Below are positions 37,315-55,818 of a stretch of 64,000 bases of DNA, one piece after another (position 1 is the first letter of the stretch; every line of letters begins with the position of its first letter). A model generated the notes under the pieces. The model was not told the origin of the DNA. It ran no database searches and saw only the letters and a program-made list of their open reading frames with translations. The stretch covers positions 186,001 to 250,000 of the forward strand of contig NZ_LPWE01000012.1 in NCBI RefSeq assembly GCF_001723355.1, written 5' to 3'. Both the position numbers and the translations under genes were made by a program. The DNA is from Methyloceanibacter stevinii (GTDB taxonomy: Bacteria; Pseudomonadota; Alphaproteobacteria; Rhizobiales; Methyloligellaceae).

Positions 37315-38154
37315 CTAGTGCGACATGAAGAGGGGAATGGTCGCCTCTTCCAGCATGGTCAACGTCACGCCGCCGAGAATGAACTCACGCCAGCGCGAAT
37401 GATGAAACGCGCCCATGACGATCATGTCGGCGGACAGGTCCTTCGCCCGGGAGAGCAACAGCCGGCCCACATCGCCGCCCTCGTTCATCGGCACCGTCAC
37501 CGGCTCGGCATTGATGCCATGGCGGGCGAGATGCGCGACCATGCCGTCCACAGGAAGGCCGTCGTCGCGGGGCTTGGCCTCGTTGAGGCCAGCCAGAAGC
37601 ACGACCCGTTTCGCTTCTTTCAGAAACGTGCGGGCATCGCCGAACGCGCGTGCTGCCTCGGCGCTGCCGTCCCAAGCTACAACGACCGTCTCGACACCAA
37701 CGGTCTTCCCGGGAGCCGCCGGAACAATGAGAACGGGGCGCCCGGAGGCGAACAGGCAGCGCTCGACCAATGCGTATTGACCGACCAGCGGATCTCCGTC
37801 CCTCGGCTGACCGAGGATCGCCAAATCGGTAAGCCGCGCGGCGGCGGCGAAGTCATGAGGAAACTCGTCGCTGGTCCCATGCATGAGCCGGACGTCGTAA
37901 GAGACACCCGCCGCATCCGCCGCGGTGCGGAACCGCGCCAGCGCCTCCTCGCCCTGGGCCCTAACGCCGTCGAGCACACCGCTCATATCGGCAAATGCGA
38001 CGTCCGCGCCGTAGAGGGGCATCAAGGCCTGGGGCGCAAGGGCAACCGCCACAAGGTGAGCCCCATGCGCCTTTGCGAGGCCGATCGCCATCAGATCGCG
38101 CGCTTTGGACGCGCTCGTCCCGTCGACGTAGACAATGACATCCTTGAAGCTCAT
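37315..38154 (-). CDS. Universal stress protein, tandem UspA domains
   Basis: 279 aa from ATG 38154 (MSFKDVIVYVDG). Two UspA folds: 1-140, and 150-279, which has VVVAWDGSAEAARAF and MGAFHHSRWREFILGG, the latter resembling the ATP-binding G-x2-G-x9-G pattern. Cytoplasmic. It is divergent from the bufferin-like operon (250 bp between starts); both may be stress-responsive, but no shared site is evident. Confidence 0.9.
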   Translation of the reverse strand: MSFKDVIVYVDGTSASKARDLMAIGLAKAHGAHLVAVALAPQALMPLYGADVAFADMSGVLDGVRAQGEEALARFRTAADAAGVSYDVRLMHGTSDEFPHDFAAAARLTDLAILGQPRDGDPLVGQYALVERCLFASGRPVLIVPAAPGKTVGVETVVVAWDGSAEAARAFGDARTFLKEAKRVVLLAGLNEAKPRDDGLPVDGMVAHLARHGINAEPVTVPMNEGGDVGRLLLSRAKDLSADMIVMGAFHHSRWREFILGGVTLTMLEEATIPLFMSH

Positions 38155-38405
38155 CCGGCCCTCCCCGTGACGGCCGATGATAGCGCTTCGGCGCGCGCGG
38201 CCAAGCATACGCTCTATTTTGTCCGCGTTGCGCAGACCTCACGGCCATCGATAGCCGAAGCGCCGGAACCGAATTCACGCCAGCGTGAAGCAAGTCACAA
38301 CGCTTTGAAGAGGTGTGACGCATCGGTTCCGGGAATTGAGGCTACCGTCCAACGATGGCGTTCGGCGCCAGAAATTGGGAACACCCACACACTAGGAGAG
38401 TATCC

Positions 38406-38663
38406 ATGAAGATGAACCAGAAGTCCGGGACCAAGATTGCCCTTACGGCTGCTGCGCTAATCGTATCCGGCACGCTTGCCACGTCCGCCCTGGCCGCTGG
38501 CGGCGAGACCGGAAAGTGCTTCGGCGTGAATGCCTGTAAGGGCCAGAGCGCCTGTAAGACCGCTTCGAACGCCTGCAAGGGCCACAATGCCTGCAAGGGC
38601 AAAGGTTTCGTCGTCACGACGGACACCGAGTGCGCCGAACAGGGCGGCGAGTTCAAGAGCTAG
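38406..38663 (+). CDS. Bufferin-type precursor peptide
   Basis: 85 aa. A signal peptide ([20 protein letters not shown]... ending SALA) is followed by six cysteines at intervals: [30 protein letters not shown] and TDTEC near the C-terminus. Such repeats are the core of BufA2-type peptides modified by DUF692 (MNIO) enzymes, which convert cysteines to copper-binding 5-thiooxazoles. A clean AGGAG ribosome site lies 7 bp before ATG 38406. The peptide is expected to be exported and to trap copper in the periplasm. Modification itself is inferred from the neighbour. Confidence 0.9.
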
Positions 38664-38681
38664 CCCCGCCACGGCCGGAGC

Positions 38682-38699
38682 CGGCCGCGTTTGCGGCCG
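38682..38699 (+). other. Intercistronic hairpin between precursor and MNIO genes
   Basis: Perfect 7-bp arms CGGCCGC and GCGGCCG with GTTT loop, 19 bp after the precursor stop. No T-run follows. It could reduce read-through or protect the upstream mRNA end so that precursor outnumbers enzyme. Confidence 0.55.
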
Positions 38700-38744
38700 C
38701 TTCGCCACTTCCTATATGACTCTCGGTGCTAAGCACCGTTGGAG

Positions 38745-39605
38745 ATGGCATTGTCCGACCACAAACCACCCTATCTCGGCTTCGGCCTTGGGCTCCGGCC
38801 CGAGCACTATGACGAGATTCTGTCCGGCGACCCCAATGTCGACTGGTTCGAGGTCATCTCCGAGAATTACATGATCCCTGGCGGCAAGCCGTTGCGGGTC
38901 CTGGACGAAATTGCCGAACGCTATCCGATCGTGATGCATGGCGTGTCCTTGTCGATCGCTTCCACCGCACCGCTCGACATGGAATATCTGACGGAACTCA
39001 AGACGCTCGCCGACCGCGTCGAGCCGAAATGGATTTCCGATCATCTGTGCTGGACCGGCGTACATGGGGTCAACCTGCACGACCTTCTACCGATTCCGTA
39101 TACGCAAGAAGCCCTCGATCATGTGGTCGACCGCGTCAGTCGTGTGCAGGACTTCTTGGGGCGCCGCCTCACCCTGGAGAACGTTTCGAGCTACGTGACG
39201 TTCGCGGAGTCCGAGATGAGCGAATGGGACTTCGTGAGCGAGGTCGCCCGCCGGGCCGATTGCTGGCTGCTCTTCGACGTCAACAACGTCTATGTCAGCG
39301 CCTGCAATCACGGCTTCTCGACGCGCGACTTCCTGCAAGGGATTCCGCGCGATCGCATCGTGCAGTTCCACTTGGCAGGCCACAGCCACGAAGGCGACCA
39401 CATCGTCGATACGCACGACCATCCCGTCTGCGACGAAGTTTGGGACTTCTATCGCGAGACGGTCTCTCATTTCGGCCCGGTGTCGACCATGATCGAGCGG
39501 GACGACAACATTCCTCCGTTGGCGGAGGTCATTGCCGAGCTCGACATCGCACGCAAGATTGCTCAGGAGGTCGCCGAGGCCAAGAAGGTGATCGCCGCAG
39601 AATGA
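38745..39605 (+). CDS. MNIO (DUF692) enzyme, bufferin maturation
   Basis: 286 aa TIM barrel. Predicted multinuclear iron ligands: IVMHGVSLSI, ISDHLCW, ENVSSYV, FDVNNVYVSA, FHLAGHS and VDTHDH. MNIO enzymes oxidise Cys residues of a substrate peptide with O2. Start: ATG 38745 is only bases from the GGAG at 38741-38744, whereas a TTG at 38751 (SDHKPPYLGFGLG) lies at the ideal spacing and may be used. It follows the precursor gene by about 80 bp. Confidence 0.93.
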   Translation: MALSDHKPPYLGFGLGLRPEHYDEILSGDPNVDWFEVISENYMIPGGKPLRVLDEIAERYPIVMHGVSLSIASTAPLDMEYLTELKTLADRVEPKWISDHLCWTGVHGVNLHDLLPIPYTQEALDHVVDRVSRVQDFLGRRLTLENVSSYVTFAESEMSEWDFVSEVARRADCWLLFDVNNVYVSACNHGFSTRDFLQGIPRDRIVQFHLAGHSHEGDHIVDTHDHPVCDEVWDFYRETVSHFGPVSTMIERDDNIPPLAEVIAELDIARKIAQEVAEAKKVIAAE

Positions 39606-39627
39606 CGACAGTGCTGACGGGATTGTC

Positions 39628-40446
39628 ATGACCAGTCTCAAAGACCTGCAGGCGCGATTCCAGGCCGGCATCGTGGGCGGCGACAACACAGCCCTGAACG
39701 ATATCAACGACAGCGCGACAGAGGATCGAGGCACACTCTTCGGCGTCTATCGCAATGCCTACGGACTGCGGCTCGCCGAGATCCTCGGAAAAGACTACGA
39801 ACTGACGCACACCTATCTCGGCGACGATGCGTTCTCCCGACTTGCTCGGGCCTATATCGCCGCACACCCTTCGGACAAGCGCAATGCGCGCTGGTTCGGC
39901 CGCTACCTGCCAACGTTCGCGCGGACGACGGCGCCATTTTCAAAGCACAAGGAAGTCGCAGAACTCGCCGCGCTCGAAAAGGCTCTTGCCGACGCCTTCG
40001 ACGGTCCCGATGCCGCGCCGGTCTCCATTGAGGAACTCGCCGCGATCCCGCCCGAAGACTGGGCGGAGCTGGTCTTCACGCCCCACCCGACAGCGCAACG
40101 GCTTCGATTCAAGACGAACGCCGCCGATATTTGGACGGCGCTCGACGGCGACACGACACCTCCCCCGCCGGTGCACCTCGCCGAGCCTCAGAACATTCTC
40201 GTCTGGCGGCAGGACCTCACGGCCCGTTTCCGCCCGCTGAGTGCCGAAGAAGCCATGATGTGGGCTGAGGCCACCAGAGGCGTGCGGTTTGGCGTTCTGT
40301 GCGAGATGGTCGCGACCTTCGGCGGTTCCGACGAGGCCGAACTGCGCGCGGCGACTTACCTCAAGACCTGGCTCGACACGGGAGCACTCGCCTGCGTCAG
40401 CCCTGACTGTCCTCAGTCGGACCTGGTGCTGGGAAGAGCGCATTAG
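39628..40446 (+). CDS. BufC-like partner protein (DUF2063)
   Basis: 272 aa. The N-terminal DUF2063 helical part includes YRNAYGLRLAEILGKDYELT and ARAYIAAHPS, followed by a C-terminal beta-rich part with RQDLTARFRPLSAEEA. In buf and hvf operons this protein binds the precursor and presents it to the MNIO enzyme. It begins 22 bp after the MNIO stop. The last 50 bp overlap the convergent ydcF gene. Confidence 0.9.
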   Translation: MTSLKDLQARFQAGIVGGDNTALNDINDSATEDRGTLFGVYRNAYGLRLAEILGKDYELTHTYLGDDAFSRLARAYIAAHPSDKRNARWFGRYLPTFARTTAPFSKHKEVAELAALEKALADAFDGPDAAPVSIEELAAIPPEDWAELVFTPHPTAQRLRFKTNAADIWTALDGDTTPPPPVHLAEPQNILVWRQDLTARFRPLSAEEAMMWAEATRGVRFGVLCEMVATFGGSDEAELRAATYLKTWLDTGALACVSPDCPQSDLVLGRAH

Positions 40447-42862: not shown

Positions 42863-43810
42863 TCAGTCGTTCCCGGGTCCGAGGACCGTCGCAGGCGCGG
42901 TGATCTCGAACGTCGCACCCCCTTCCTCAGCCACAACCATCTCGATGCAATTGCCGGGGCCGTCCGTGATCATCCAAGCATGAGTCTCGAACGTTGGCAC
43001 GACGACCGTCTCGCCCTGATTGATCCCGGTGTGGTCAACGGGCGTGCCATCGGTATCGATCCACACAAGGCCGCGATAGCCGTCTGCCTTGTTGACGAAG
43101 GTGATCTCCGCCGAGACCTCCGAGCGCTCCGATTTGATCGTGCCGAACCTGTCGCACGACACCGCATCCACCTTGGGGCTCACGGGGCCACGCGGCGCCC
43201 GCGATGCCAAATCGTCTATCGCGGCGGCGATCGCGGATCCGGCCGTCTGGGCACTTGGATCTCCTGCCGCAGCCTCGTCTTGAGCGTCCGGCCACGCCCC
43301 GCCGCTGCAGGCGGCCGTGAACTTCCGAAGCGCGTTGGCGGCACCTGTCAGATGCAGCTCCTGCTTTTCCCCACCCGCGATGCCATAGGTGAGGAGGTCA
43401 TCGTTTGCCATGGCTTCCCACAGAGGCGCCGTGGCACTCAGTAGGGCCCGAAGTCCGGACACGCCGACTTCGGCGTCCTTGCCATAGACCTTGGCGGGCA
43501 CTTCTTCAGTGAGATCACCGACCGAAAGGGACAGAACCACGTCCTGGTTTTCGTCGAGGTCGACCGTGTCGTACCAGAAGATCGCACGCGGCGTCGCGCC
43601 GTCTGCTCCGCCGCACATCGCCTCGAACGCAACCGCATCCGTTTCGGGGATGCCGTAAGTCAGGATCACGGTGTCCGCGTCCTCGGGGACATCGCTGTCG
43701 TATCTGTCGACCCTCCACGCCATCCGCTCTTCCGCACCGGCGTTCGGACACGCGAAGGCGCCCAAGATCAGGGCGAACCCGACAGCGTGACATGGGCGGA
43801 GGAATAGCAT
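42863..43810 (-). CDS. Secreted protein with C-terminal VHL-beta-like domain
   Basis: 315 aa from ATG 43810 with a GGAG 9 bp before. Signal peptide ending PNAGA. The middle part (about 25-180) is unassigned, with a CGGADGATPRAIFWYD stretch. The C-terminal 80 residues read like the VHL beta domain: AEITFVNKADGYRGLVWIDT followed by DGTPVDH, GINQGETVVVPTFETHAWM and ITDGPGN. Such domains are known in a minority of bacteria. The role may be protein or ligand binding in the periplasm. It precedes mgtE on the same strand. Confidence 0.75.
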   Translation of the reverse strand: MLFLRPCHAVGFALILGAFACPNAGAEERMAWRVDRYDSDVPEDADTVILTYGIPETDAVAFEAMCGGADGATPRAIFWYDTVDLDENQDVVLSLSVGDLTEEVPAKVYGKDAEVGVSGLRALLSATAPLWEAMANDDLLTYGIAGGEKQELHLTGAANALRKFTAACSGGAWPDAQDEAAAGDPSAQTAGSAIAAAIDDLASRAPRGPVSPKVDAVSCDRFGTIKSERSEVSAEITFVNKADGYRGLVWIDTDGTPVDHTGINQGETVVVPTFETHAWMITDGPGNCIEMVVAEEGGATFEITAPATVLGPGND

Positions 43811-43927
43811 TCGAGAATTCTCCAACGACAAGACCGCGCCGACCCTATCTCAAACGCCATTGTCCGGCATCCGCTAAACCCGCATCCGGCCACAGGACAG
43901 GAAACTGCCAAGACGAGAGGTCGTGAC

Positions 43928-48067: not shown

Positions 48068-48095
48068 AACTATCTGCTGAGTACTAGGGAATCCT

Positions 48096-50859
48096 CTACC
48101 AGAACTTCACCTTCACGCCACCATAGGCGACCGTCGGGGGCCCGGGTGTGATCGTGCGCGCGTTGGAGAAGAACTCGTCGCCCAGCTGGGGATCCGCCCC
48201 TGCTGCCGAGTTGCCCGCCTCCAGATTGAAGAACGTGCCGAACACGCCGTACTCCTCGTCGAACACATTGTTCACGAGGCCGAAGATCTGGATGCGCGGT
48301 GTGATGTCGTAGCTGGTGTGGAGATTCACGGTCCAGTACCCGCCCAGAGGCTCGTTCAGGTTCGAGTCGTCCTGGAAGAAGTACTGATTGCTGACCGCGA
48401 GCAGATCGCGCCGATTTCCACTTCGGTGTGATCCAGTAGTCGGCGCCGGCCTTGAACCGGTGCTGCGGGATGCCCGGAATACGATCTCCAGGACGGACGT
48501 TGATACAGCGGATTTCTTCTTCCTCGCCTTCTTCGCCGTCCTCGTCGTCGCCGCCACCGCCGCGCTCGACGCATTCACCCGCACGCGGATTGTCCGGCGC
48601 TGCGAGTTCCAGCGGGCTGTCATAGGTCGCGTCGATGAAGGCATAGTTCGCATAGGTGAGCAGGCGTTCGTTGGTATAGGCGATGCTCGCCTCGATGCCT
48701 TGGCGCAGCGTATCGCCGCCGTTCTCGAACACGCCGCGTCCCGCGATCGGCGAGTACACTGTGATGATGTCATCCGTGTTGAGGGTCCTGAACAGGCCCG
48801 CGCTCCATTGCAGAGCCTCACGGCCTCTCTTGTGCTCGCCACGGATACCGAACTCCCACGTGTGCGACACCACCTGGTCCAGAGGCGGATCGGCGACAAG
48901 GAAGCTCTCGATCAGGCACGGGTTATTCGGATCCGAGCAAGCGAGCTCAGACGCCACCGGAGCACGGTTCGCTTCCGAGTAACCGCCGTAGAGCGACAGA
49001 TCGTCATTGAGCTGGTAAGTGGCGCCGATTGCCGGGTTGAAGCGGCTAAACTCGCTGGTTCCGTCCAGCTCGGGCGCATTGCCGCTCAGATCCTTGATCT
49101 CGATCTGGGCGTAGTTCCAGCGGCCACCGGCGGTGACCGCCAGTCTCTCCGTGACGTTGAACGTGTCGGAGAAATAGAGCCCGACATATTCGTTCTCCGT
49201 GCCGAGTTCCTTGAACTCGACTTCGGTCGGGGCGGATAGAACGAGCCCGTTCCCCTCGACGACGAAGCGCGGTTTGAAGAAGCCCAGCTCGCTCGATGCG
49301 CCGTAGGTAACGTCACCCTTGTCATAGCTTGCGCCAATCAGGAACTGATTCTGACGGTCGAACAGGTCGTCGGTGTTCACCAACTGGAGCGAGCCACCCC
49401 AGCCGTCTGCGGTCTGACCGGTCCGGTCGATCGAGCCGATGGGCATGCGCAGATCGTCGAACACGATGGGATTGCCCGTCTGGTCGAGCGCCAGCTCGTC
49501 CTCGATACACAGGAACCGCTCGATGGCCTCGTCACCTTCGCATTCCGCAGCCTCCGAGATGTTGCCGTCATCGTGGCTCTGCTTGAAGTAGCGGTAATAC
49601 GCGACGCCGGTCAGGGCTGTCGTCTCGTTGATCTTCGCCGTCGCGTTCAAGGACGGCATCAACATCTCGTTCTTGGTCGTTTGCGGCGACGTGAACGTGC
49701 GCTGGCGATCGAGATTGAGAAGCTGTATCGGCACGGAAGCGGTAACGCCGACGAAGTTGTCCGCGCCCGTCAGACTTGCGTGCACGTCGAAGACGTCGTT
49801 GCGGTAGCCGAGGTCGAGATACATGCGGCGGATCTCGGACTCGGAGAAATCGCGATAGCCGTTGTCGGTGATGCGCTCACCGCCGAAATAGACGCCCCAG
49901 TTTCCGCTCTTCAAACCGGCCTGGACGTCACCCTCCATGCGGCCGAACGAACCCGCGGAGAAGATCGCCTCACCGCCCTGATAGGTGAAGCCGTTCTTCA
50001 TGTTGACGACGATGGCGCCACCCAGAGCGTTCAGGCCGTAGACCGGATTGCCGCTAACCACGGCGACATCCCCGATGGCGATTTCCGGCAGGAAGTCCCA
50101 GTTCACGTTGTCGCCGAAGGATTCGTTGATGCGAACGCCGTTCTGGTACACCGCCAGGCCCTGGGGCACGCCGTTCACGGGCGAGACCTCAAAGCCCCGA
50201 TATTGGATGTTGGTCTGGAACTCGTTGCCCTGGAGGTCGCCGATGATAACACCGGGGACGCGCTGCTGCAGGATCTCCTGGAAGGTGTCGACATATCCCT
50301 CACGGGCGAAGTCGCTGCCCGTCAGGATCGTGACACCACCGGGCACTTTCGCGAGCGGCAGGTCGGCGCCGGGTACCGGCGACATGGGAACGCCGGTGTT
50401 CGACGTCATCACGCTGCCATCCGTCTCGGCCCCGATCGGCGCGATCCGATCCGTGAAGGTTTGCTCCGCGACGGGGGCGGGAGGCGCGCGGCGGGGCGCT
50501 GCGGCAGGCGCGGCAGGCGGCGGTGTTCGCCGCGCCACAGGCCGAGGCGTCGATTTCGGTACGGACTCCGGCTCCTCGACCGGCTTCGGCTTCGGCTGCA
50601 CCACTTCGATCGCAGGCACCTCTTCGCCAACCTCGCCGTCGACCCCTGCGGCAGTTCCCTCAACCGCTTCGGCGTCGTCCGCGGTCTCGGCGCTCGCCGG
50701 GGCCGACTCTGGCGTTCCCGACGACGTGTCGCCGTTCGACGACGCGGCAGCTTCCGGGGACGAACCACTGTCTCCTCCGTCCGTCTGGGCGAATGCCGTA
50801 CCCGATCCCCACATGACCGCGACAACCGCGAGCCCCTTCAGCAACGTACGAAGTGTCAT
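48096..50859 (-). CDS. TonB-dependent receptor (one frameshift)
   Basis: About 921 aa. ATG 50859 gives MTLRTLLKGL, signal peptide ending GTAFA. Residues about 25-130 are acidic then Pro/Lys-rich (EVVQPKPKPVEEPESVP). The plug has GVTILTGSDFA and NPVYGLNALGGAIVVNMKNG; the barrel follows. A loop between two Cys reads GGGGDDEDGEEGEEEE. The frame breaks near 48409; adding a base restores NQYFFQDDSNLNEPLGGYW and the barrel end YGGVKVKFW. The protein moves a scarce ligand across the outer membrane with TonB energy; ligand unknown. Confidence 0.92.
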
Positions 50860-51097
50860 GACGTCCCCCACCGTTCTAACTTCATTGAAAATGGCGTGCC
50901 GATGCGCACGAAATGACATTGGCGCTCGGAAGCGTACGCAAAAGCGCGCGCGAGCGGCCGCGAAAGAATGTCAGAGCTTGAAAGGAAAGGATGCTTTGGT
51001 GGAGGCCGGCGCCGAATGGCGTCTTGGGCCGCCGCACTCCGGATCGACGGAACGCTTGGAAGAAGAGAGGCAGTGGGATGAGCGCTGAGAAGCGGCT

Positions 51098-52906: not shown

Positions 52907-53310
52907 TCGGCGTGCTCCTTACGTTTGCGTGTTCCTTTCAAGTGTCCTCATCTGCTTGCGTCTTTTCGCCAACGCCGCGAACAGCCTAACGCATCCAGGG
53001 GGCTCTACAGAACCGCCCCTGCGTTGATCCGCCGCGCCGGGTGAAGGCGCGGGAAACGGCCCCGGGGCACGACGCAAACATCATCTGTCTTCCGGACGCA
53101 TGAGGCGCCAGCCCTATACCCGAACGTGAGCCGTCACCGATTGATCTTCGACATGCACGACATGCATGTCGAACCTTTAGAACAATGCACTCCATGCGTA
53201 CCTGCGAGTACGGCTATGCTGGGCCGGCCGTGCGACCAGCGCGGCTGGGGGAAGAGTTCCGCGTCAGACGGAGCGCACCCTTGGGGGTATGTCAGACTGA
53301 GGGGATTATC
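52907..53310. other. Divergent region between mscS and the siderophore receptor
   Basis: 404 bp with no convincing gene. It contains the inverted repeat at 53147-53173. Two copies of GTCAGAC occur at 53265-53271 and near 53293. A ribosome site GAGGGGAT precedes the receptor ATG. Confidence 0.5.
53147..53173. promoter_or_regulatory. 27-bp inverted repeat upstream of the siderophore receptor
   Basis: Perfect 11-bp arms TTCGACATGCA and TGCATGTCGAA with a five-base spacer CGACA; the right arm also continues as a CGACATGCA direct repeat. It lies about 140 bp before the receptor start. A metal-responsive operator is a plausible reading but no known Fur, Irr or RirA box was recognised. Confidence 0.45.
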
Positions 53311-55818
53311 ATGGAACTCCGTGACAGCGGCGCCGCTACACCTGTGCGCGCCCCAGGCTATCTTTCCGTTTCCAAATCAAGGCTCCTGGCGCTTTCCGCG
53401 TCCGCGGCGTTCATGCTCCTTCCAGGCGAGATGGTGCGAGCCCAAGAAGGTGCCGCCGGCGCAGCCGAAGGAAATGCGGAGATATCCAACACGGCTGGCA
53501 CCAACGGCGAAGCGGGCGCTGCCGGCCCGGATCCGGAGGGCACGCCGGACGGCGCTACGGACGAGCCCCCCATCGAGACTTCGGTTCCGCCGGTGGTGAT
53601 CGAGCAGCAATCAGATCCCGAGCCGGCTGCCCCGGTAGTGACCGCGGAGCCCGACCCGGACCCCACTCCCTACTCCCGCCCCGAGCCGCGCAGGCGAGCC
53701 GGCACCGCACAGCCGGCGCCATCGACCACCGTACCACCTTCATCGACCGCAGATGGCGGCTTCGCCTCGCAGGAAGCGATCGAGGAGGCGATCTTCGACC
53801 TTCCGGTCGACGGCGACACACTCAATCGCGGCTCGTCCGGCGTCGACGGCTACTTCGCCGCCGGCACGTCCTCGGCGACCAAGACCAATACGCTGATCAT
53901 GAATATCCCCGGAACCGTCTCCATCATCCCGGAGGAACTCGCCGAGGACCAGGGCGCCAACACGCTCGGCCAGGCCCTGCTCTACGTTCCAGGCATTGCC
54001 GTCCAACAGGGCGAGGGACACCGGGACCAGCTCACGTTCCGCGGCCAGGAGACGACGGCCGACTTCTTCGTCGACGGGGTGCGTGACGACATCGAGACCT
54101 TCCGTGATCTGTACAACGTCCAGACTATCGAAGTGCTCAAGGGTCCGAACGCAATGATCTTCGGACGTGGCGGCGGCGGCGGCGTCATCAACCGCGTGAC
54201 CAAGCGCGCGGACGGCATCCCCATCTACGAAGCCACCCTTCAACTGGGAAGCTGGGGCCGCGCGCGCGGAACGGCGGATGTCGGTCAGGCGATCTCGCCC
54301 AACGCCGCAATCCGCCTGAACGCCATGTACGAAGACTCCGAGACCTTCCGCGACTTCTCCTGGCTGGAGCGCTACGGCATCAACCCGACCTTGGGCTTCA
54401 AGCTCGGCGAGCGCACGACCCTGCATTTCAGTTACGAATACAAGACGCACGATCAGAATGTCGATCGTGGCGGCCCCTCGATCGCAGGCGTGCCGTTCGA
54501 GTACCCCATTGAGACCTATTTCGGTCAGCCGAATGCGAGCTTCACGAACTTCGACGGTCACGTGGCGACGGCAACGCTGGAGCACGAGACCAAGGGCGGC
54601 GTGCAGATGCGTAACCACACCTTCTTCGCCGACTACGACAAGCTCTACCAGAACATCTTCGCATCTTCGCCGGTCAACGGACCGGGACCGGGCCTCGTCG
54701 AACTCAACGGCTATCAGAACTCCGAAGCCCGACAGAACTTCGTGAATCAGACCGACTTCTCCTACTCGTTCGCCCATGGAGAACACTTCCGGCACACATT
54801 GGTGGGCGGTTTTGAGTTCGGCATCCAAAGCAATGACGCATTCCGCAATCTGCCGGTCTTCGGTTCTCCGGGCTCAGACATCTTCACGGTCAACGTGCCG
54901 GCAGCGAACCCGACGATCTTCAAGAGGACGCGCTACGACATCCCGAACCGGCGCCGCTTCACCGATCTCGACACCACGAGTGCCTTCATCCAAGACCAGT
55001 TCGAGATCACACGCTATTTCGAGTTGATCGGCGGCATTCGCTTCGACCGTTTCGATGTGAGCTTCGAGGATGGGCTCAACGACTTCCGGACGTCGCGGGT
55101 CGACGACGAGTGGTCGCCGCGCGTGGGTGGCGTTCTCAAGCCTTGGGAGAACTTCCATCTATACGCGAGCTATGCGCGGTCGTTCCTGCCCGCCAACGGC
55201 GACAACTTCGGCGCACTCAGCGTCACGGCTTCCGAACTCGAGCCCGAAACGTTTGAAAACTACGAGACGGGCTTCAAGTGGACGATCCAGCCGCGCCTGC
55301 TGCTGCAGGGTGCAATATACCAGCTCGATCGCGACAATCAGGCCGTTACTGTCGGCCCCGACACGTTTGCGCGCGGTCTCACGCGTACGCGCGGCCAGGA
55401 GATCGAGATCAGCGGCTACGTGACGGACAAGTGGCAAGTCTTCGGCGGCTACGCGCATACGGAATCGGAGATACTCTACGCGGGTGACGACGTGGCGTTG
55501 GTCGGAAACTCCGTCGAGTCCGTGCCGGTCGACACCTTCTCCCTATGGAACAAATATCAGCTCACGGAGAAATGGGGCTTTGGCCTTGGCGTCATCCATC
55601 AGGCCGGTTGGTTCGCCGAAGCGGACAATGCGGTCAAGGTGCCCGGCTACACCCGCGTCGACAGCGCCGTCTACTACGACCTAAACGAGCACTGGTCCGC
55701 GCAGGTCAATATCGAGAACATGTTCAATACGGAGTACTGGATCTCCTCGCACAACAACAACAACATCTCGTACGGCGCACCAACCCAAGCCTTCGCGACC
55801 ATGAAGGCACGATGGTAG
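53311..55818 (+). CDS. TonB-dependent siderophore receptor
   Basis: 835 aa from ATG 53311 (MELRDSGAATPV); an earlier in-frame ATG at 53185 has no ribosome site. A signal-like segment ends MVRAQE. A Pro/Ala/Glu-rich linker covers about 50-150. The plug carries TNTLIMNIPGTVSIIPEELA, LGQALLYVPGIAVQQGEGHRDQ and RGQETTADFFVDGVRDDIET, the motif set of siderophore (catecholate or hydroxamate) receptors. The barrel ends PTQAFATMKARW. It takes up Fe-siderophore. The ligand cannot be determined. Confidence 0.93.
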   Translation: MELRDSGAATPVRAPGYLSVSKSRLLALSASAAFMLLPGEMVRAQEGAAGAAEGNAEISNTAGTNGEAGAAGPDPEGTPDGATDEPPIETSVPPVVIEQQSDPEPAAPVVTAEPDPDPTPYSRPEPRRRAGTAQPAPSTTVPPSSTADGGFASQEAIEEAIFDLPVDGDTLNRGSSGVDGYFAAGTSSATKTNTLIMNIPGTVSIIPEELAEDQGANTLGQALLYVPGIAVQQGEGHRDQLTFRGQETTADFFVDGVRDDIETFRDLYNVQTIEVLKGPNAMIFGRGGGGGVINRVTKRADGIPIYEATLQLGSWGRARGTADVGQAISPNAAIRLNAMYEDSETFRDFSWLERYGINPTLGFKLGERTTLHFSYEYKTHDQNVDRGGPSIAGVPFEYPIETYFGQPNASFTNFDGHVATATLEHETKGGVQMRNHTFFADYDKLYQNIFASSPVNGPGPGLVELNGYQNSEARQNFVNQTDFSYSFAHGEHFRHTLVGGFEFGIQSNDAFRNLPVFGSPGSDIFTVNVPAANPTIFKRTRYDIPNRRRFTDLDTTSAFIQDQFEITRYFELIGGIRFDRFDVSFEDGLNDFRTSRVDDEWSPRVGGVLKPWENFHLYASYARSFLPANGDNFGALSVTASELEPETFENYETGFKWTIQPRLLLQGAIYQLDRDNQAVTVGPDTFARGLTRTRGQEIEISGYVTDKWQVFGGYAHTESEILYAGDDVALVGNSVESVPVDTFSLWNKYQLTEKWGFGLGVIHQAGWFAEADNAVKVPGYTRVDSAVYYDLNEHWSAQVNIENMFNTEYWISSHNNNNISYGAPTQAFATMKARW

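Follow-up and report, generated by a model that had tools for sequence, protein, structure and literature searches.

Bufferin 1 (Buf1) and bufferin 2 (Buf2) are the closest described systems to the locus reported here, a three-gene operon at positions 38406-40446 on the + strand of a 64,000-nucleotide stretch of the Methyloceanibacter stevinii genome (referred to as the window). In Buf1, the central cysteines of the precursor are modified and the outer cysteine pair forms a disulfide (PMC12452194). In Buf2, six cysteines are conserved in 90% of precursors; the passages of PMC12452194 available to us leave the Buf2 modifications unidentified and report, from a single C. vibrioides peptide, only a 305-nm band and a preliminary loss of mass for each cysteine. 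The oxazolin/fontiphorin systems HvfABC/FonABC, with EGKCG repeats, also combine an MNIO with a DUF2063 partner and give a 5-thiooxazole (PMC13097082). According to the same source, as far as it was available, MNIOs that act on Cys-Lys substrates carry Asp where the EGKCG enzymes carry Phe, and this Asp was modeled against the substrate Lys.

The window operon shares with bufferin 2 (Buf_6/12Cys family; NF050166, NF050167) the precursor and oxidase families, the partner type, the gene order, the six cysteines and, by eye, a likely signal peptide. It is very probably a bufferin 2 operon (BufA2BC, a "Cys-Lys captophorin"), whose exported peptide would chelate copper and is predicted to carry four rings. 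Sequence reading and profile models gave the gene order as precursor, MNIO and DUF2063 partner, as follows.

38394..38399, +, ribosome-binding site AGGAGA of bufA2, with AGGAG 7 nucleotides (nt) before the ATG (sequence reading)
38406..38663, +, bufA2, precursor of 85 amino acids (NF050166), with a likely signal peptide at residues 1-30 and a six-Cys mature part
38751..39605, +, bufB, MNIO (DUF692) maturase (NF050167), with the TTG 38751 start preferred over ATG 38745
39628..40446, +, bufC, DUF2063 partner with an RRE-like part (Pfam DUF2063 and structure matches)

Gene identities and relatives

An earlier note on this DNA had proposed a bufferin-type BufA-BufB-BufC set on one strand with a strong ribosome site at the precursor, and the sequence, together with the profile searches, bears this out on the + strand. 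The precursor scored 87.3 bits against the NCBIfam BufA2 model NF050166 (cut-off, 60; 86.4 bits in the genome scan). BufB scored 389.6 bits against the NCBIfam MNIO_BufB model NF050167 (cut-off, 310) and 384.6 bits against Pfam MbnB_TglH_ChrH, and BufC scored 61.3 bits against Pfam DUF2063 (cut-off, 27.2). The same note had pointed out that the precursor departs from the four-Cys BufA1 type and that no BufD/DoxX-like gene is adjacent. Both points hold: six cysteines are the ordinary condition of BufA2 (PMC12452194, in the part available), and none of the four DoxX matches in the genome adjoins bufA2BC, the one on the same contig lying about 220 kb from the window. The lack of an adjoining DoxX gene is a difference from bufferin 2 as described.

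The solved chains nearest to BufB were 3bww, then TglH and MbnB; the alignment spanned most of BufB with 3bww and TglH and residues 84-255 with MbnB. The AlphaFold model of BufC (predicted local distance difference test [pLDDT], 93.7) matched chain A of TglHI (8hi7_A; E, 1.3e-5), judged by its size to be the partner TglI, and NGO1945 (3dee; E, 1.9e-5; template modeling score, 0.71 by target), with TbiB1, an RRE protein, matching weakly (E, 0.48; probability, 0.97). By its Pfam score and these structure matches, BufC counts as a DUF2063-plus-RRE partner (PME type 1). A profile of BufC also found 3dee among the solved structures (E, 0.0004), and plain phmmer of BufC against the same structures returned nothing useful.

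Judged from sequence, TTG 38751 is the most likely start of bufB, ahead of 38739 or 38745: the 38745 site holds no start codon in four relatives (ATC in L037 and L044, TTC in L038 and ACC in L045), and one is kept at 38751 (TTG, GTG or ATG) across the displayed loci of the genus. In L036 and L039, as in the window, the 38745 site still reads ATG. The sequence GGAG lies 6 nt upstream of TTG 38751.

BufA2 matches at an E value of 0.001 were present in 22 of 30 family genomes, 19 of them over the cut-off. The genus holds 15 bufA2 places, and 14, including that of the window, stand beside usp and panC (at L044, panC lies beyond the contig end); 13 of these 14 run on into bufB, bufC, ydcF and mgtE, the exception being L048, and the fifteenth place is the stray copy at L035. 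Since the scores exceed curated cut-offs and the gene order is kept in the genus, the operon is beyond chance. Bufferin 2 is documented here across Methyloceanibacter. Tandem bufA2 copies precede a single bufBC pair at L036, L042 and L046. By MNIO, the nearest named relative among the matches listed is Methyloceanibacter methanicus (94% identity). Eighty loci, the best 80 of the matches listed to this MNIO in named genomes and hence leaning to Buf2, contain 81 MNIO open reading frames. With precursor labels from models built on Methyloceanibacter family and genus sequences, the upstream precursor was of BufA2 type for 76, of BufA1 type for 1 and not found for 4, and more than one precursor was present at 18. 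A BufC relative followed 75 of the 76 BufA2-preceded frames, and the remaining one was cut by the contig end.

The earlier note had named, as an outcome that would count against it, a phylogeny placing the DUF692 protein outside bufferin-associated MNIOs; the tree placed it inside. Among 112 rows (by precursor, 86 Buf2, 18 Buf1, 1 EGKCG and 7 none), in a tree whose bootstrap had not fully settled, the window MNIO fell in a set of 37, of which 36 were BufA2-linked and 1 was unlabeled (99/92). A separate clade (100/100) held 16 of the 18 BufA1-linked MNIOs, including the genome's own second MNIO, and 1 unlabeled row.

Three related systems were considered and rejected. Buf1 shares with the window operon the MNIO, the DUF2063 partner and a Cys precursor, but its precursor BufA1 (DUF2282) has four cysteines and belongs to another family; the window precursor had no match to Pfam DUF2282, and BufA1-linked MNIOs mostly form the other clade. 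HvfABC/FonABC differ in having a Lys-Cys substrate and Phe in the enzyme, where the window operon has Cys-Lys and Asp; the HvfB model gave 285.8 bits (cut-off, 360), the HvfC model 13.4 (cut-off, 142), and the window precursor contains no EGKCG repeats. Methanobactin MbnABC has the MNIO family in common, but the window precursor, unlike that of MbnABC, has a likely signal peptide (by eye), and the MbnB model gave 79.8 bits (cut-off, 325). BufB was under the cut-off of every one of the HvfB, ApyH, MbnB and ChrH models.

Cysteine pattern and predicted modification

The cysteines of the precursor are residues 38, 44, 50, 57, 63 and 76, and four of them lie within CKG or CKT. An n-region and a hydrophobic stretch ending in SALA|AG, with an AxA site, were read by eye as the likely signal peptide. 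At each of the six cysteine positions of the alignment, 119 to 120 of 120 BufA2 sequences have Cys, in a set from which hits below 50 bits, rows with X, sequences longer than 160 amino acids and irregular motifs were excluded and in which close relatives remain. In these 120 precursors, Lys follows Cys2, Cys3, Cys4 and Cys5 in 115, 110, 109 and 118 cases, respectively. Cys1 is mostly followed by V, F, M or Y. Cys6 is mostly followed by T, A, D or E, and Lys occupies this place in 13 of 120. The enzyme carries the corresponding signature: BufB has Asp (motif ERDDN) at the Phe-to-Asp site described in the available part of PMC13097082. Asp was read at this site in 73 of 86 BufA2-linked MNIOs, including that of the window (the others were 5 Ala, 1 Gly and 7 not read), and in 2 of 18 BufA1-linked MNIOs.

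Because of the Cys-Lys pattern, the enzyme Asp and the outer-pair disulfide of Buf1, we predict a disulfide between Cys38 and Cys76 and four thiooxazoles, at Cys44, Cys50, Cys57 and Cys63 (about -16 Da). A peptide in which all six cysteines are thiooxazoles (about -24 Da) and none forms a structural disulfide is unlikely, given that the +1 Lys, the presumed contact of the MNIO, is mostly missing after Cys1 and Cys6 and that the outer pair of Buf1 stays a disulfide (PMC12452194). The number and position of rings in Buf2, left open in the available part of PMC12452194, thus become testable as four inner Cys-Lys sites versus six.

The upstream dyad and the SigF-NrsF circuit

Two conserved elements lie upstream of bufA2, as follows.

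38294..38320, +, 27-bp dyad GTCAC-N16-GTGAC around the core CTTTGAANAGG, which may serve bufA2 as operator/promoter
38342..38348, +, another conserved patch, CTACCGT here and CTATAG in other species, perhaps a -10 region, from 14 aligned genus upstream regions

Of the 15 genus loci, 14 have the dyad before bufA2, with a TTGAA-to-ATG distance of 94 to 102 nt; these 14 sites include near-identical species (the window, L039 and L036), and the site at L041 is weak (31.4 bits). At the tandem loci L042 and L046, the second bufA2 has its own dyad (44.9 and 41.0 bits), and these two sites were kept out of the matrix. No dyad was found before the second bufA2 of L036, which sits 48 nt after the first, or at the stray bufA2 of L035. 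Assignment of the dyad to the divergent universal-stress gene was rejected on the strength of the additional sites at L042 and L046. GGAG precedes bufA2 in all 14 aligned genus rows. In the 3.2-Mb genome, the dyad is the sole match at up to 3 mismatches, and window shuffles gave none. A search for a wider regulon gave no sign of one, with one exact site and four sites with 2 mismatches, against four in the reversed control. A description of the dyad was not found in the literature searched, which consisted of listings and passages, with the primary bufferin paper outside it.

Two DUF692 operons of Caulobacter, CCNA_03363-03366 and CCNA_02999-03001, depend on SigF and are induced by copper in all four conditions, and growth of a sigF mutant is poor when copper is present (PMC8224329, in the part available). 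We read both as bufferin operons from their DUF2282, DUF692 and DUF2063 genes in the available part of PMC3511200, which gives the SigF motif as GTAACC-N16-CGAA and describes sigF as dispensable for dichromate or cadmium resistance. Buf2 clusters, in turn, are said in the passages of PMC12452194 to be without sigma genes. Outside Methyloceanibacter, GTAAC[CT]-N15-17-CG[TA] occurred in 25 of 97 bufA2 upstream regions, mostly from Bradyrhizobium and hence not independent; shuffles gave a mean of 0.5 (largest, 4), and the other strand gave 0. The motif stands before bufA2 at L063-L069, L071-L074, L077 and L078 (Bradyrhizobium, plus L065), L075, L090, L107 and L147.

Reading the dyad as a SigF promoter found little support: the window has GTGAC for GTAAC, with no CG[TA] 15 to 17 nt on. 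Of the 14 genus loci, L037 alone gave a loose GTGA-type SigF match. The comparison for NrsF covered 6 genomes drawn from those whose bufA2 has the SigF-type motif and 17 Methyloceanibacter genomes. NrsF was present in all 6 of the former and had no match in 16 of the latter, the window's genome included; among the 8 genus genomes of good quality (completeness of 90% or more, contamination of 5% or less), 7 had no match. The sole genus genome with NrsF (G013) had no match to BufA2 or to DUF2282. With a mismatched promoter and no NrsF match in its genome, the window operon does not qualify for the SigF-NrsF regulon, and in its dyad and lack of NrsF it is unlike the SigF-controlled operons of Caulobacter.

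Since NrsF is without a match in 16 of 17 genus genomes and the SigF-type motif occurs together with NrsF elsewhere, bufferin 2 of Methyloceanibacter appears to be under a regulator other than SigF-NrsF. More tentatively, and with a chance that we put somewhat below even, the operon may have become detached from the SigF-NrsF circuit of its relatives and come under a dedicated regulator, not described in the literature searched, that reads the single 27-bp dyad of the genome, the dyad accompanying bufA2 in 2 of 3 tandem duplications. The genes belong to an already named family, and the upstream DNA switch looks genus-specific. The dyad offers a handle on how Buf2 is switched where the SigF-NrsF pair is missing.

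Proposed function of the operon and its setting

A further candidate element lies between bufA2 and bufB, as follows.

38682..38699, +, hairpin with a 7-bp stem and a GTTT loop, candidate stabilizer/attenuator; the stem-loop is also present in relatives

L036 and L044 differ by an A-T versus G-C swap on both sides of the stem (by eye). Of 85 precursor-MNIO gaps, 83 were folded; z was below -2 in 58 of the 83 (median, -2.5), many of the folded stretches extending beyond the hairpin into the start of bufB. L059 (z, +1.3) and L062 (z, -0.45) were among the gaps without a strong fold.

In the proposed mechanism, transcription would proceed from the genus-specific promoter/operator directly upstream of bufA2, and the hairpin after bufA2, together with the TTG start of bufB, would limit enzyme levels relative to those of the peptide. 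The RRE-like part of BufC would bind the precursor and present it to BufB, a presumed iron-dependent MNIO that would act in the cytoplasm and oxidize Cys to 5-thiooxazoles. Sec would then export the modified peptide, which would lose its signal peptide and chelate copper in the periplasm. Gene identities, their order and conservation, the Cys-Lys pattern, the enzyme Asp and the upstream dyad are observed, while the chemistry, ring count, export, copper function and regulation are inferred, the chemistry and copper function from homology.

Several observations weigh against this reading. The structure model of BufA2 (pLDDT, 58.1) is too poor to judge a Cys1-Cys6 bond, and BufC fails the NCBIfam HvfC model (13.4 bits; cut-off, 142). 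At L048, bufA2 is followed by a run of N, beyond which bufB and bufC were not found, and L035 holds a stray bufA2 without bufBC in the sequence seen. A Buf2 of C. vibrioides is cited (PMC12452194, in part), but the control genome of that species gave no match to the BufA2 model, so this precedent may be distant; CC2907 of C. vibrioides is listed as DUF2282 in the available part of PMC3511200. The related mmr cluster of Microbulbifer showed no expression under added copper and gave only a slight gain in E. coli, and its authors were hesitant to assign copper protection (PMC12538549, in the part available).

This doubt about mmr also bears on whether the same chemistry serves another metal or purpose, be it gold, mercury, oxidative or sulfur stress, or copper delivery rather than detoxification. 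MerC fusions and gold-induced gig operons are named in passages of PMC12452194, and dichromate induces the Caulobacter operons in a SigF-dependent manner (PMC3511200, in part). Against these stand the copper induction of the same operons in all four conditions and the copper-sensitive growth of the sigF mutant (PMC8224329), as well as the binding of copper by a 5-thiooxazole peptide (PMC13097082, in part), and we regard another metal or purpose as somewhat unlikely. That the operon is silent or redundant is highly improbable. The genome does have a second locus with an MNIO, a DUF2063 and its one DUF2282 match (C4, L002). However, the signal peptide of this bufA1 (L002/L179, G000:C4:60301-60444 region) is out of frame with the mature part in this assembly, a single base being missing in the alignment with L176, the closest relative, and bufA2BC with its upstream dyad is kept in the genus. 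The frame break is either a real pseudogene or an assembly error; if it is real, bufA2 would be the only intact exported bufferin of the genome. The region upstream of bufA1 has conserved patches that differ from those of bufA2. The operon is genuine, well conserved and of known kind, and its value to specialists is the four-ring prediction and the unusual regulation, not its existence.

The neighboring genes are as follows.

37315 to 38154 or 38208, divergent, universal-stress gene (usp) upstream of bufA2
40397-40446, convergent, overlap of 50 nt between bufC and the end of the downstream DUF218 gene

Farther downstream, the window encodes a predicted protein at 42863-43831 (-) with a weak match to the VHL beta domain (22.3 bits; Pfam cut-off, 21), unexpected in a bacterium. 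Two TonB-dependent receptors, at 48070-50919 (-) and 53185-55818 (+), follow at 8 to 16 kb beyond bufA2BC.
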